A stretch of DNA of 64,000 nt from positions 124,001-188,000 of the forward strand of contig NZ_JAIOUO010000007.1 in the NCBI RefSeq assembly GCF_019931195.1, written 5' to 3'. Position 1 is the stretch's first letter, and each line of letters opens with the position of its first letter. A model generated the notes under the pieces. The model searched no databases and was not told the origin of the DNA. It saw only the letters and a program-made list of their open reading frames with translations. Made by a program: the position numbers and the translations under genes. This DNA comes from Marinobacter sp. F4216. GTDB lineage: Bacteria > Pseudomonadota > Gammaproteobacteria > Pseudomonadales > Oleiphilaceae. This document shows, one piece after another, positions 2,696 through 8,856 of this stretch.

Positions 2696-3814
2696 TCAGT
2701 CGGCCCGTTTCGGGCCGACGATCACCGCTGCCTGCAATGGGTGCTGGCTCCCGTAGCGTGACATTTTCTCGAATACCCGGCGGTCGATGGGCAGGTATTG
2801 TTTGTCGGCTACCGTTTCTCCGTTTTCGGTGTCGATTTCCGGATCGTGCAGATAGATGAACTGCTTATCCATGGCGCAAACCGTCACCCAATGAGGAATT
2901 CGACTCCGGTTCAGTTGCCACGTGCTGATGAGGATGATGGGAATGCAGCCTTCCTGCAGGGCAGCCTCCATACCCGTCAGGGTGAGTGGGTCGTGATGAA
3001 GCTCAATGTTTGTCTGTCCAATGTCGTGCAGAAAGCCCTCGTGGACCAGTTCCAGAACCTTCTTCTTTTCTATGCTCCTGACCGTGTGCTTGAACAGCGG
3101 CCCTTCCTTGCTGATCCATGCTCTTGCATGGAAGCCCCGGTGCCAGGCAGCAAGTGCCAGACCATGGGGTCCGCATCCGCCATGGCCTGACAGCATGAAT
3201 ATGGTCGTGGCCTCACGCCAAATCCTAAGCTCTTCGAGGGTTGTCAGAGGCTGGTGCTCGTCGAGGGTTGCCATCGCCATCATCAATGCTGCCGGCCCGC
3301 AGGAAAATTCGGTGGTCTGGGGGTAATAGGGCACCTTTGGTACATCGGGCGCTGGCGCGTAGAACAGGATCCTGCGCTCAAAACGCAGGGCGTTGCCGTG
3401 GTCTTCGTAATAGTCCCGGTAGGTTCCAAACTGCCGGTATCCCAGCCGCTTGTACAACCTGATGGCATGAACATTATCCTCCCGCACTTCTAAACGCATG
3501 ATGATCCGGCCTGCGCGAACCGCTTCCTGCTCGGCTCGGCGAATCAGTTCTTCGCCTGCACCCTGACCCCTGGCTCGGGGCGATACAGCAATCGAATAGA
3601 TGCGTGCAAGTCGGGTGGCCGCATGCATCAACACCAGGCCGTAGCCCAAAAGCTCCGTCCCTTGTAAGGCAACGATCAGCCGGTCCTGCGGCTGTTCCAG
3701 AAACCGGCGAAAACTGCGCCGGGATAATCGGTCTTCCTGAAAGCACAGTTGCTCTAGCTGAACCAGAGAATCAAGGTCGGCAAGTGCGGCAGGGCGAAGC
3801 ATCAGTTCTGACAT
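2696..3814 (-). CDS. GNAT acetyltransferase fused to C39-like cysteine peptidase
   Basis: A two-domain protein of 372 residues. Residues 1-150 are a RimI-like GNAT fold with the acetyl-CoA loop RGQGAG near residue 83 and the NVHAIRLYKRLGY motif typical of N-acetyltransferases. Residues 160-370 are a papain-like C39 domain: catalytic Cys in EFSCGPAA (about 172), His in IPHWVTV (about 308) and Asp in YLHDPE (about 324), so the triad looks intact. Unlike bacteriocin exporters there is no membrane or ABC part. It is divergent from the RimK-like ligase gene at 4010, an association known from comparative genomics of ATP-grasp amidoligases; together they suggest making, trimming and acetylating a peptide tag. 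The substrate is unknown. The start is ATG 3814; an in-frame TTG lies at 3829. Confidence 0.88.
   Translation of the reverse strand: MSELMLRPAALADLDSLVQLEQLCFQEDRLSRRSFRRFLEQPQDRLIVALQGTELLGYGLVLMHAATRLARIYSIAVSPRARGQGAGEELIRRAEQEAVRAGRIIMRLEVREDNVHAIRLYKRLGYRQFGTYRDYYEDHGNALRFERRILFYAPAPDVPKVPYYPQTTEFSCGPAALMMAMATLDEHQPLTTLEELRIWREATTIFMLSGHGGCGPHGLALAAWHRGFHARAWISKEGPLFKHTVRSIEKKKVLELVHEGFLHDIGQTNIELHHDPLTLTGMEAALQEGCIPIILISTWQLNRSRIPHWVTVCAMDKQFIYLHDPEIDTENGETVADKQYLPIDRRVFEKMSRYGSQHPLQAAVIVGPKRAD
2699..2719. terminator. Stem-loop between convergent uvrB and GNAT/C39 gene
   Basis: A perfect 8-base-arm inverted repeat (GTCGGCCC, loop GTTTC, GGGCCGAC) starts 5 bases after the uvrB stop and lies inside the last codons of the convergent gene. 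It has no T run on either side, so it is a hairpin that could aid termination rather than a textbook intrinsic terminator. Confidence 0.45.
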
Positions 3815-4009
3815 GGCATCGGGGCTCAATCAGTAGGGTAAGAGGCCAGTTTGAGGGGCTCCATTGAGCTCATTATCGGTGAAATCCGTTTTCAGACAAG
3901 GCATTGTGTTATGCGTAAAAGCACTGATTATCAGTTGGTTGTGGTTGTTCTCAGTGTGGAATATCGTTTCGCAAAATAACGTTGGTGTCTTCACGGAGGA
4001 GACTCTTGC

Positions 4010-5509
4010 ATGTCCCGCTTACTTATTGTGGTTGACCAATCCAAAGACTGGGCTCCTTACTACCCCAGCGAGGATGTGCTTACCTTTGATCAGTATCTTG
4101 AATTGTCCGAGCCCGCGTCCCGCAGGGTTCGTGTCATCAACCTGTGCCAGAGCGCAAAGTACCTGAGTCGCGGGTATTACTGCTCTTTGCTGGCAGAAGC
4201 CCGCGGGCACAACGTGGTGCCGTCGGTCATGACACTGAACGATCTCAGTCGAAAGGGGTTGTTTTCCCTGCAATTGGATGAGCTCGATGAGAGCGTGGTC
4301 AACTGGCTGGATCGTGCCGGCTGTACAATAGACCCGGCGTCCGATGAACGGCAGGCTACCCGCGAACTGCGCATTCGCACCTTCTTCGGTCAGGTAGACC
4401 AGCCGGCATTGAAGCCTGTGGCCCGGCTGGTGTTCGAGCGATTTCCTTGTCCGATTCTGGAGGTGGTGTTCCGTTACAGAAAGGGGTGGCAGATTGATTC
4501 CATGAAACCGGCCTCGCCCGCGGACCTGACCGAGAAAGAGCAGGATCTGTTCGCCACCGCACTGGACCGGTTCAGCAGTATGGTCTGGCGTAAACCCAGA
4601 AGCCGGCAGCGGTATCGCTTTGATCTGGCCGTGCTGGTCAATCCGGAGGAAGAAATGCCTCCTAGTGATCAGGAGGCGTTGAGGCGCTTTGAACGCGCGG
4701 GCCGAAAACTCGGTATAAATGTGGAACAGATTACCCGCAAGGATTTTCTCCGCCTGCCTGAATACGATGGTCTGTTCATTCGCGAGACCACGGCAATTGA
4801 TCACCACACTTATCGTTTTGCCCGAAAGGCCGAAGCGGAGGGCCTGGTGGTGATCGACGATCCAGTTTCCATTTTAAGGTGCACGAATAAGGTTTTTCTG
4901 GCGGATTTGCTGAAAACCAACAAGGTGCCGACACCTAAGACACTGATTCTCTCAAAGGATCAGAAGCGGGCGGTGGAGCAGGTGATCGAGGAGATTGGCT
5001 TTCCGGTGGTCATCAAGATTCCGGATGGTGCGTTTTCGAGAGGCGTTACCAAGGCCGAAGACGAAGCTTCGCTGAGAGCCGGCCTGAAAGCGCTTTTCAA
5101 ACAGTCGGCTCTGGTGTTGGCTCAGGAGTACCTCTATACCGACTATGACTGGCGCATCGGGGTGCTGGGCGGACGAGCGATTTATGCCTGCAAGTACATG
5201 ATGGTGAAAGGGCACTGGCAGATTTACCAGCACGGCGAATCAAGCAGCGAGAGTGGCGACTTTCAAACCCTGCCTACTTATGAGGTTCCGAGAAAGGTAA
5301 TTCAGGCTGCGCTCAAGGCCACCAGACTCATCGGTAACGGCTTGTACGGAGTGGACATCAAACAGTCAGGAAAGCGGGTGGCGGTGATTGAGGTAAATGA
5401 TAATCCCAGCATTGATGCCGGGATCGAAGATCGGTTCCTTGGTGGGGAGCTTTATACGCTGGTAATGCAGGAGTTCCTCCAGCGAATGGAACAAAAGAGG
5501 GAAAAATAG
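4010..5509 (+). CDS. RimK-like ATP-grasp amino-acid ligase with RLAN N-terminal domain
   Basis: 499 residues. The N-terminal half (to about 200) matches the RimK-like ATP-grasp N-terminal (RLAN) type, beginning LLIVVDQSKDWAPYY. The C-terminal ATP-grasp (about 285-495) shows FPVVIKIPDG (ATP lysine) and the metal-binding EVNDNPSIDAG. The family joins amino acids, often glutamate, to a carboxyl acceptor with ATP. At 499 residues it is much longer than E. coli RimK (300), which modifies ribosomal protein S6, so S6 should not be assumed as substrate. The start ATG follows GGAGGA at good spacing. It stands head-to-head with the GNAT/C39 gene, with about 195 bases of shared upstream region, and the two probably work together. 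Confidence 0.88.
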   Translation: MSRLLIVVDQSKDWAPYYPSEDVLTFDQYLELSEPASRRVRVINLCQSAKYLSRGYYCSLLAEARGHNVVPSVMTLNDLSRKGLFSLQLDELDESVVNWLDRAGCTIDPASDERQATRELRIRTFFGQVDQPALKPVARLVFERFPCPILEVVFRYRKGWQIDSMKPASPADLTEKEQDLFATALDRFSSMVWRKPRSRQRYRFDLAVLVNPEEEMPPSDQEALRRFERAGRKLGINVEQITRKDFLRLPEYDGLFIRETTAIDHHTYRFARKAEAEGLVVIDDPVSILRCTNKVFLADLLKTNKVPTPKTLILSKDQKRAVEQVIEEIGFPVVIKIPDGAFSRGVTKAEDEASLRAGLKALFKQSALVLAQEYLYTDYDWRIGVLGGRAIYACKYMMVKGHWQIYQHGESSSESGDFQTLPTYEVPRKVIQAALKATRLIGNGLYGVDIKQSGKRVAVIEVNDNPSIDAGIEDRFLGGELYTLVMQEFLQRMEQKREK

Positions 5510-5515
5510 AGGTGA

Positions 5516-6670
5516 TCAGGAGTTTTTGACCCATACCCGCACACTCCCGAACCAGGGATAGCCCGTCATTGCTTTGTGAACTTCTGCCTCATTCAGGGTG
5601 TCCGCATCGGAATCCAGGAAGAGCTCCAGATGAACCTTGTTCTTGAGATAGTGAAGCCGAAGGCGAGTCTTGGTCGGATAATCGCTGATGTGTTTTTCCA
5701 GCGTGCGTTGGATATCCCCACGTGATGGAAGTTCTTCCGACGTGGGGGATAGCTCTTCATCATTTTCGGCATCAATGTGGAAGTTGATGTCCCGAATGTT
5801 CTCCAGGGCCTCTCTCATGCCACTGGCGACCTGAACGCCGATCTGATGGCCTTCCGATACGCTGATATCCGGTCGCACCACCAGATGGACGTCAAGCAGG
5901 ATATCCTGACCCATTTTGCGGCTGCGCAATTCGTGGATGTTGCGCACCCCGTCGGTATTGCGGGCGATGGACTTCAGCATTTCGGTGTCTTCCGGGGAAA
6001 TGCTGGTATCAACCAGTTCCTTTACGCTGTCCCAGGTAAATTTCCAGCCAATGTGAATAATGATGACGGCGATAACGACAGCCGCTACAACATCCAGCCA
6101 GGCAAGACCGAACATTGCTCCCAGCGTTGAGACCACAACGATGACGGAGGAAAACGCATCGGTCCGGCTGTGCCAGGCATTAGCGATGATCAGGTCTGAA
6201 CGAATCTGGATACCCACTCGCCGGGTGTAGTGGTAGATCCACTCTTTTCCGACCACAGAGAGTCCTGCCGCAGCAAGTACTGGCCAACCGGGAATTATAT
6301 CGGCCTGGCCTTGCCACAAGCGAAGGATGTTTTCCCAGGCCAGGGCTGCACCCACGGCGATCAGAATGCTGCCGAGTACGAGAGTCCCCAGAGTTTCTAT
6401 TCGCTGGTGACCATAAGGGTGGTCCTCGTCGGGTTCCTGTCGGGAAACCCGCATGACACCCAGCACAACGAGGTCGGAGGCAACATCACTAAAGGAGTGT
6501 ATGCCGTCGACAAGCAGCGCCTGGGAGTGAAAAACGGCACCTGCGATGACTTTGATGACGCCCAGCACAGCGTCAAGAATCATGCCGATGATTGTGACCT
6601 TGGAAGCAGCCCTGGCCTCGGCGGAATAGTTATCTCGCCGAGCAGAATCTGCTTGAGGCAAATCGTTCAT
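5516..6670 (-). CDS. Cation diffusion facilitator (CDF) family metal/proton antiporter
   Basis: A 384-residue inner-membrane protein expected to export divalent cations (Zn, Fe, Mn or Cd) against protons. Visible are several hydrophobic segments in the first 220 residues, the paired transport-site motifs HSFSD (with the preceding LVDGI) in segment 2 and HSRTD in segment 5, and DEDHPYGHQRIE in the cytoplasmic loop. The cytoplasmic C-terminal domain is longer than in E. coli FieF (300 residues) and contains a second tail of about 80 residues after the usual dimerisation domain. The start ATG follows GGAG at 8 bases. It is convergent with the RimK-like gene, 6 bases apart. Metal specificity cannot be read. 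Confidence 0.92.
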   Translation of the reverse strand: MNDLPQADSARRDNYSAEARAASKVTIIGMILDAVLGVIKVIAGAVFHSQALLVDGIHSFSDVASDLVVLGVMRVSRQEPDEDHPYGHQRIETLGTLVLGSILIAVGAALAWENILRLWQGQADIIPGWPVLAAAGLSVVGKEWIYHYTRRVGIQIRSDLIIANAWHSRTDAFSSVIVVVSTLGAMFGLAWLDVVAAVVIAVIIIHIGWKFTWDSVKELVDTSISPEDTEMLKSIARNTDGVRNIHELRSRKMGQDILLDVHLVVRPDISVSEGHQIGVQVASGMREALENIRDINFHIDAENDEELSPTSEELPSRGDIQRTLEKHISDYPTKTRLRLHYLKNKVHLELFLDSDADTLNEAEVHKAMTGYPWFGSVRVWVKNS

Positions 6671-8324: not shown

Positions 8325-8537
8325 TCATGCCGACGTGACGTTGGAGAGTTTGTGAATGCCGGAAACGCCGGTCATACCCTCCCAATTATCGGTGCGACCT
8401 TCTCGCCAGCCGTTCAGCCATTCCTGGCGAACTTCGGCTTGTTCATTTGGGCAGCTGTCTTTCGGCTTACCTGACACGCCAGCGAGATAACCCCGCTTGT
8501 ATGCACGTGCGTACATATCTCTTTTCTGTCTTTTCAT
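8325..8537 (-). CDS. rmf: Ribosome modulation factor
   Basis: A 70-residue basic protein opening MKRQKRDMYARAYKRGYLAG, nearly the E. coli Rmf N-terminus, and keeping the EWLNGWREG block. Rmf binds 70S ribosomes in stationary phase and dimerises them into inactive 100S particles. It is about 15 residues longer than E. coli Rmf (55) at the C-terminus. The start ATG at 8537 has GAGGAA upstream; the open frame continues further 5' but the extra residues are unlike Rmf. Confidence 0.95.
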   Translation of the reverse strand: MKRQKRDMYARAYKRGYLAGVSGKPKDSCPNEQAEVRQEWLNGWREGRTDNWEGMTGVSGIHKLSNVTSA

Positions 8538-8856
8538 GCCGTTCCTCACTAATGGATTAACAGAACAAGCGTGTACACATCTGCAGTGGCTGCGACAATG
8601 GCTACCCGTTGCGGGATAAGTCCTTATTGTCATTACAAGCCAGAGCAGTCAGGATCCTGTTAACGGAGGAAAATACCTTCCTCCTGAACGACGCGTCACC
8701 TAAAAGGTAAGTCCAACGTCGTGCCGATGTACACTAATTATTTAATCTATGTGACGTAATTCTTATAGTTTCATGCAATAAACTTTTCAGCCTTCTAAGC
8801 AAAAAAGTCTTTATTCCAGAAACTTACGAGAACCCTCTTCTGACCGGGAGCCAGCC
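8538..8856. other. 319-base intergenic region between rmf and rlmKL
   Basis: No gene, RNA or clear terminator is visible. It must hold the promoters of both divergent genes, but I cannot point to a convincing -35/-10 pair. An imperfect inverted repeat (ACGACG near 8690, CGTCGT near 8720) is the only structure noticed. Confidence 0.5.

Follow-up and report, generated by a model that had tools for sequence, protein, structure and literature searches.

The locus encodes a RimK-like ligase and an acetyltransferase-peptidase fusion

A 64,000-nucleotide stretch of the Marinobacter sp. F4216 genome (contig NZ_JAIOUO010000007.1, positions 124,001 to 188,000; here called the window) contains two divergent genes separated by 180 nt (3830-4009). 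The minus-strand gene (2696..3829; 377 aa, counted from a TTG codon at 3829) encodes a fusion of a GNAT acetyltransferase and a DUF3335 C39-like cysteine peptidase, and the plus-strand gene (4010..5509; 499 aa) encodes a predicted amide ligase composed of an RLAN domain and a RimK-type ATP-grasp domain. An earlier note, made from the DNA letters, had described these proteins and their head-to-head arrangement. Both open reading frames (ORFs) lie where it placed them, and a Pfam scan with matches above cut-off confirmed the domain make-up of both proteins. For the GNAT-C39 gene, an in-frame ATG at 3814 appears the likelier start than the listed TTG because homologues agree with it.

The GNAT domain (residues 8-155; 3365..3808, minus strand) appears to be of the protein N-terminal acetyltransferase type. 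Acetyltransf_1 matches residues 20-131 (69.3 bits), and the RimI-type model TIGR01575 is exceeded marginally (88.4 bits; cut-off, 86.4). Foldseek and VIA comparisons of a predicted model of the protein (mean predicted local distance difference test score [pLDDT] of 91.4) place the GNAT fold nearest the protein N-terminal acetyltransferases Ard1 and RimI; the top nine VIA matches have Z scores of 22-23 and root mean square deviations of 1.4-2.8 over 144-153 residues. The domain also contains an invariant tyrosine, Y141, in a DYY motif.

The peptidase domain (PF11814; residues 166-371; 2717..3334, minus strand) scores 276.4 bits against a cut-off of 25. Its putative catalytic codons, all on the minus strand, are Q171 (3317-3319), C177 (3299-3301), H313 (2891-2893), and D329 (2843-2845). 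Gln171, Cys177, and His313 are identical in all 43 homologues compared, and position 329 is Asp in 41 and Glu in 2. Such a Gln/Cys/His/Asp set is the catalytic pattern of active papain/C39 enzymes, and the description of the protease as intact holds at the level of sequence. The Foldseek and VIA lists for this protein were filled by the GNAT domain and are uninformative for the C39 half. A profile search with the C39 domain alone returned weak matches, the best (E = 0.01) being a butirosin-H-like protein; given this BtrH-like match, the C39 half may transfer acyl groups instead of hydrolyzing.

The ligase is related to RimK but is probably not the S6 enzyme

The RLAN domain (PF14401) spans ligase residues 27-183 (4088..4558, plus strand) with 165.2 bits against a cut-off of 25, and the genome search returned the same bases. 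The ATP-grasp catalytic domain, placed by the Pfam scan and a residue alignment, spans residues 293-469 (4886..5416, plus strand; 52 bits, cut-off 21). In its predicted model (mean pLDDT, 88.0; predicted template modeling score, 0.65), the ligase has a fold nearest those of RimK, LysX/ArgX, and D-Ala-D-Ala ligases. LysX/ArgX, like RimK, load protein C-termini.

R382, N463, and R258, the last just upstream of the ATP-grasp domain, align with RimK R189, N262, and R64 and are invariant in all 50 aligned sequences, as is E461. Passages of PMC10092738 name the three RimK residues as glutamate contacts and assign ADP contacts S212 and N213 to the RimK loop SNLHRGG. This loop is replaced in the RLAN family by HWQI followed by one invariant Gly; a loose SNLHRGG-type pattern matched 5 of the 50 rows, out of register as judged by eye. 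Because the residues matching RimK R64, R189, and N262 are invariant, the RLAN ligase likely forms amide bonds. Its amino acid specificity probably differs from that of RimK.

The earlier note had allowed for the ligase being an ordinary RimK that glutamylates ribosomal protein S6. We rejected this identity, since the curated RimK models score far below cut-off on the ligase (NF007764, the S6 ligase equivalog, 42.8 bits against 331; TIGR00768, 90.6 against 143.4) and a true RimK is encoded elsewhere. Rimk_N (PF18030) does not match the window ligase; four full-length true RimKs score 145-162 bits with it. The canonical RimK of this genome (228.8 bits) lies directly after a RimB-type retropepsin gene, and because both genes are found there, S6 is predicted to be served by that separate enzyme and not by the RLAN ligase. 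Three nucleotides downstream of this RimK (locus L129 on contig C5, 1210-3183), a gene for an AstE/AspA-type hydrolase (133.9 bits) parallels the zinc hydrolases found beside RLAN pairs (see below). A third ATP-grasp/retropepsin locus in the genome resembles Rlo.

Ligase and partner are kept together across many bacteria

We assembled 183 ligase loci: 63 from a class set (274 genomes sampled evenly across the class), 80 named loci that were the best of at least 590, so that near relatives are over-represented among them, and 40 phylum loci hand-picked from hits. Four further fetched stretches stand outside the 183. RLAN is found in 63 of the 274 class genomes and in 72 of 398 genomes of the phylum sample. 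Strong DUF3335 matches, defined as those above 200 bits (which excludes G016, G049, G116, and G004, all below 30 bits), occur in 44 class genomes, 43 of which also carry RLAN (Fisher P = 1.6e-33, with genomes treated as independent). Phyletic profiling, suggested earlier as a check on the pair, thus reveals strong co-occurrence of the two genes.

Adjacency follows the same pattern. A GNAT, C39, or GCS2 partner adjoins the ligase in 174 of the 183 loci, divided into 117 with GNAT-C39, 44 with GNAT only, and 13 of a form described below as variant B, with no partner in the remaining 9. Since the first set supplied the sequences for the partner hidden Markov models (HMMs), partners that diverge strongly may have escaped notice. 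Five of the nine partnerless loci (L108, L150, L159, L174, and L216) are truncated by a contig end or close to one; in L159 a truncated DUF2817 gene adjoins the ligase. Gene orientation varies between the sets (tandem/opposite, 39/8 in the class, 1/74 in the named, and 22/17 in the phylum loci), and the neighborhood therefore outlives rearrangement. Because they are kept together in many bacteria, the two genes very likely work as one unit.

Carriers of the pair include Marinobacter, Pseudomonas, methanotrophs, and members of other classes of proteobacteria, and the window ligase is 77-86% identical to those of six Marinobacter loci. Carriage as phage cargo was rejected, phage matches being only partial (at most 51% coverage), as was plasmid cargo: 11 plasmid records reached at least 80% coverage, and 7 of these are Azospirillum replicons of 1.75-2.05 Mb. 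In one genus, each of two genomes (loci L217-L220) carries two RLAN systems, one GNAT-C39 and one GNAT-only, and offers a natural paralogue test.

Partner modules are lost, exchanged, and fused

On a tree of 180 ligases, from which three short ligases were excluded, parsimony counts 13 shifts of partner type, at least one of them for variant B. The C39 half is dispensable, being absent from the GNAT-only loci (44 of 183), and the six GNAT-only class genomes contain no DUF3335 match anywhere in the genome. Variant B consists of a C39_2 peptidase without GNAT, the ligase, a GCS2 ligase, and an FGase. A GNAT-less C39 peptidase and/or GCS2 lies by the ligase in 13 of the 63 class loci, with FGase in 10, and the variant-B ligases form a single clade (12 of 12 in the tree). 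The C39 domains of variants A and B match each other in profile comparison (96.4% probability). A Legionella adelaidensis plasmid record carries the ligase-GCS2-FGase part of variant B.

Like a glutathione-type two-ligase pathway, variant B sets a GCS2 ligase beside an ATP-grasp ligase. However, glutathione synthase is present besides, over its cut-off, in the window's genome and in 10 of the 13 variant-B genomes; because of the latter, we rejected a glutathione replacement for most of these genomes.

GNAT and ligase are joined in a single ORF in three genomes of one genus (L251, L257, and L258 by HMM; L251 was also Pfam-scanned), and the L251 genome has a separate GNAT-C39 protein beside the fusion. 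At L106, a second GNAT gene (5983-6585) directly follows the ligase of a GNAT-C39/ligase pair.

It had been suggested that ligase, acetylase, and protease together build, cap, and trim a peptide or a peptide tag. The GNAT-ligase fusion and the adjoining zinc hydrolases fit this idea, but trimming by the C39 half is not essential, as GNAT-only loci exist, and the three-enzyme set itself does not hold for the clade that has GCS2 in place of GNAT, plus an FGase hydrolase.

Zinc hydrolases and DUF155 recur beside the pair

Using HMMs that for M20 and M14 were made from genes already known near the pair, we looked for zinc-hydrolase genes no more than 1.5 kb from the ligase or from its GNAT/C39 partner and found one in 28 of the 63 class loci. 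M20 and FGase account for 10 each and M14 and DUF2817 for 4 each, with no locus having two, as if four zinc-hydrolase families filled one slot beside the pair. DUF2817 was found in 16 of the 80 named loci and 6 of the 40 phylum loci, and M20 in 1 of the latter. Within 3.5 kb of the ligase, DUF2817 is present in 27 of the 183 loci; 10 of the 274 class genomes have a strong DUF2817 match, which in 4 stands beside RLAN, and the window's genome has none (best, 22.6 bits). Two of three DUF2817 proteins scanned have weak AstE/AspA similarity. Small peptides or N-acyl amino acids are the substrates of the M20, M14, DUF2817, and FGase families.

A second recurrent neighbor, DUF155 (RMND1 family), is found no farther than 3.5 kb from the ligase in 15 of the 183 loci, and in 8 of the 63 class loci it falls inside the fetched neighborhood. 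Gaps beside DUF155 and DUF2817 are often some 20-80 nt, with the genes on the same strand. In the class set, 20 of 36 DUF155 genomes carry RLAN (P = 4.8e-6, again with genomes treated as independent); a genome search found no DUF155 in the window's genome. Eukaryotic DUF155 members act in mitochondrial translation, and human RMND1 is a mitochondrial disease gene.

RimK or RimBK genes lie close to the pair in 4 of 193 loci; among these are L143, where they do so twice, and L144, where they flank the pair on either side, and these two loci look related. We regard this proximity as only suggestive. In Marinobacterium rhizophilum (L143, 2022-8473), two RimB-RimK cassettes, separated by a C39 remnant, directly adjoin the GNAT-C39/ligase pair.

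The intergenic region holds a conserved box

Comparison across Marinobacter loci located a box, ATGCGTAAAAGCAC-NN-AT, between the two divergent genes (3911..3928, plus strand). Its first 14 nt are the same in the window and in five of the six other Marinobacter loci, and in four of those loci the box takes the form of the palindrome ATGCGT-N6-ACGCAT. The box could be an operator. With up to one mismatch allowed, ATGCGTAAAAGCAC occurs once in the genome, and this search thus found no regulon. Read as codons, ATGCGTAAAAGCAC gives Met-Arg-Lys-Ser-Thr, and the codons downstream are not kept as a whole. Intergenic reading frames run to only about 13-42 codons and likewise lack conservation over their full length; in the intergenic region of the seven Marinobacter loci, the only loci scanned for it, there is no conserved small ORF for a substrate or precursor. 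The remark in the earlier note that no short substrate ORF lies nearby therefore stands, and the flanking genes box the pair in: on one side a gene at 571-2694, UvrB by sequence as judged by eye, and on the ligase side a cation-efflux gene (5516-6670). Also near the pair is a gene for ribosome modulation factor (8325-8633; 71.5 bits).

Discussion

With moderate confidence, we propose that the pair is a conserved enzymatic unit that synthesizes a small amine-capped oligopeptide in the cytosol and also turns it over. With ATP, the RLAN ligase would activate a carboxylate, that of an amino acid or short peptide, and then join an amino acid to it, and the GNAT half would acetylate this same molecule at its amino end. 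The C39 half, in many lineages together with a zinc hydrolase (DUF2817, M20, M14, or FGase), would cleave the product again, and in the clade without GNAT a GCS2-type ligase would instead cap the amine with a gamma-glutamyl group. The module swaps would thus share one logic, in which an amine is capped, a carboxylate is extended, and hydrolases can undo the product. We infer the reactions, the substrates, and the choice of a metabolite over a protein target from gene content, co-conservation, fusion, conserved residues, and swaps. A small-molecule product is favored mainly because of the small peptides or N-acyl amino acids on which the adjoining hydrolase families work; the lack of a small substrate ORF at the window locus also speaks for the proposal.

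Several observations pull the other way. Four loci (L075, L088, L156, and L223) have no adjacent partner and were not put down to contig ends, although the L156 contig stops 216 nt downstream of the ligase and the L075 genome has a GNAT-C39 gene on another contig. A Pseudomonas aeruginosa plasmid record (L262) has a ligase with no partner within 6 kb; genes for a glutamate/aspartate ATP-binding cassette (ABC) transporter and a gamma-glutamyltransferase lie near this solitary ligase. No zinc hydrolase of the four families is found in 35 of the 63 class, 64 of the 80 named, and 33 of the 40 phylum loci, and an HMM search within 1.5 kb found none at the window locus. The GNAT fold is nearest protein N-terminal acetyltransferases, not free amino-acid acetyltransferases, and both DUF155 as a partner and the nearby RimK/RimBK genes fit a translation-linked protein target better.

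The last of these points lead to the alternative that survives best, namely that the system modifies a protein target with a RimK-like tag. We consider this possible but doubtful. It draws on the nearness of the ligase fold to RimK and LysX/ArgX, on the RimI/Ard1-like GNAT with its invariant Y141 in the DYY motif, on the RimK/RimBK neighbors (4 of 193 loci), and on DUF155, which adjoins the ligase (15 of 183 loci) and co-occurs with it (20 of the 36 DUF155 class genomes). There is also a precedent in RimBK, a ligase with an eraser protease, described in PMC11957791. Against a protein tag stand the replacement of the SNLHRGG loop by HWQI...G, the GCS2 swap and the zinc hydrolases, which point to small substrates, and the lack of DUF155 in the window's genome. 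More speculatively, the RLAN pair, DUF155, and a zinc hydrolase could form a second, RimK-independent capping and tagging system for a translation- or membrane-linked protein, with bacterial DUF155 proteins as its receptors or targets; we think this improbable.

Salvage or detoxification of peptides from the wall or from outside, in which GNAT would inactivate them, the C39 and zinc hydrolases degrade them, and the ligase re-join or recycle the products, strikes us as quite improbable. C39, DUF2817, FGase, M20, and M14 are all hydrolase families and C39 is optional, as salvage would allow, but ligation by ATP beside acetylation looks more biosynthetic. Moreover, the annotated subset of recurrent neighbor clusters contains one ABC transporter ATPase (a cluster of 3) and no wall-specific enzyme, and PADLOC has no match to either protein. 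With no PADLOC family matching at E = 0.001, anti-phage defense was also rejected.

Maturation of a ribosomal peptide, with C39 cutting a leader and the ligase and GNAT decorating an encoded precursor, is very unlikely. C39 domains in bacteriocin exporters do cut double-glycine leaders; however, the Pfam scan found no ABC exporter domain on the GNAT-C39 protein, PF03412 (bacteriocin-leader C39) scores 18.3 bits on it against a cut-off of 22, the window locus has no conserved precursor ORF, and many loci lack C39. We give almost no credence to another S6-glutamylating RimK beside an unrelated neighbor, which has the shared ATP-grasp fold in its favor but conflicts with the NF007764 and TIGR00768 scores, with the canonical RimK beside a RimB-type retropepsin, and with the conservation of the neighbor.

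Among known systems, RimK/RimB, an S6 alpha-L-glutamate ligase with a retropepsin eraser, shares with the window pair the ATP-grasp fold, conserved phosphate- and carboxylate-binding residues, and the pairing of ligase and peptidase. The window pair differs in adding RLAN and GNAT, in lacking a Rimk_N match and the SNLHRGG loop, and in having a cysteine-type rather than an aspartic peptidase. N-Acetylglutaminylglutamine (NAGGN) synthesis likewise combines GNAT with ATP-grasp and reportedly yields an acetylated dipeptide, but the NAGGN synthetase model TIGR03103 scores far below cut-off on the window protein (36.4 bits against 569), matching through the GNAT part only. The chemistry proposed here is akin to that of NAGGN and of glutathione but is identical to neither. 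The RloABC system of Pseudomonas aeruginosa, as described in passages of PMC12239564, also has an ATP-grasp protein in an operon with a peptidase, but that peptidase is a secreted retropepsin accompanied by a membrane transglutaminase-like protein, and the two are not homologous as systems.

The association itself is not new, as the earlier note also says. A 2009 survey by Iyer et al. is said to have predicted the association of RLAN/ATP-grasp with GNAT-papain-like proteins and to be the source of the RLAN name, and the Pfam entry reportedly lists GCS2 and M20-like peptidases among the neighbors. With the same domains and the same pairing, the window pair reportedly belongs to that association, which is said to be uncharacterized so far. 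To our knowledge the survey assigned no function to this neighborhood, and we know of no mention in it of the DUF155 link, the GNAT-ligase fusion, the repeated loss of C39, or the slot for one of four hydrolases. Searches of open-license literature listed neither an experimental study of the pair nor a paper treating DUF155 together with an ATP-grasp ligase. Passages of PMC10318531 cite this amidoligase survey of 2009 for GNAT-DUF3335 fusions and propose ligation or acetylation, and passages of PMC4431377 present a general ligate-then-cap idea for other ATP-grasp families.

Behind the pair probably lies a common metabolite or protein modification, and from the module swaps its likely chemistry can be narrowed to an acetyl or gamma-glutamyl group on an amine, an amino acid added to a carboxylate, and one of four zinc hydrolases that could undo the product. 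Genomes that have one copy, two copies, or a solitary copy lend themselves as natural test cases. Through the DUF155 link, access could be gained to a bacterial family with a human relative, RMND1, and if DUF155 proteins did prove to be receptors or targets of the system, the RMND1 family would gain a biochemical context.

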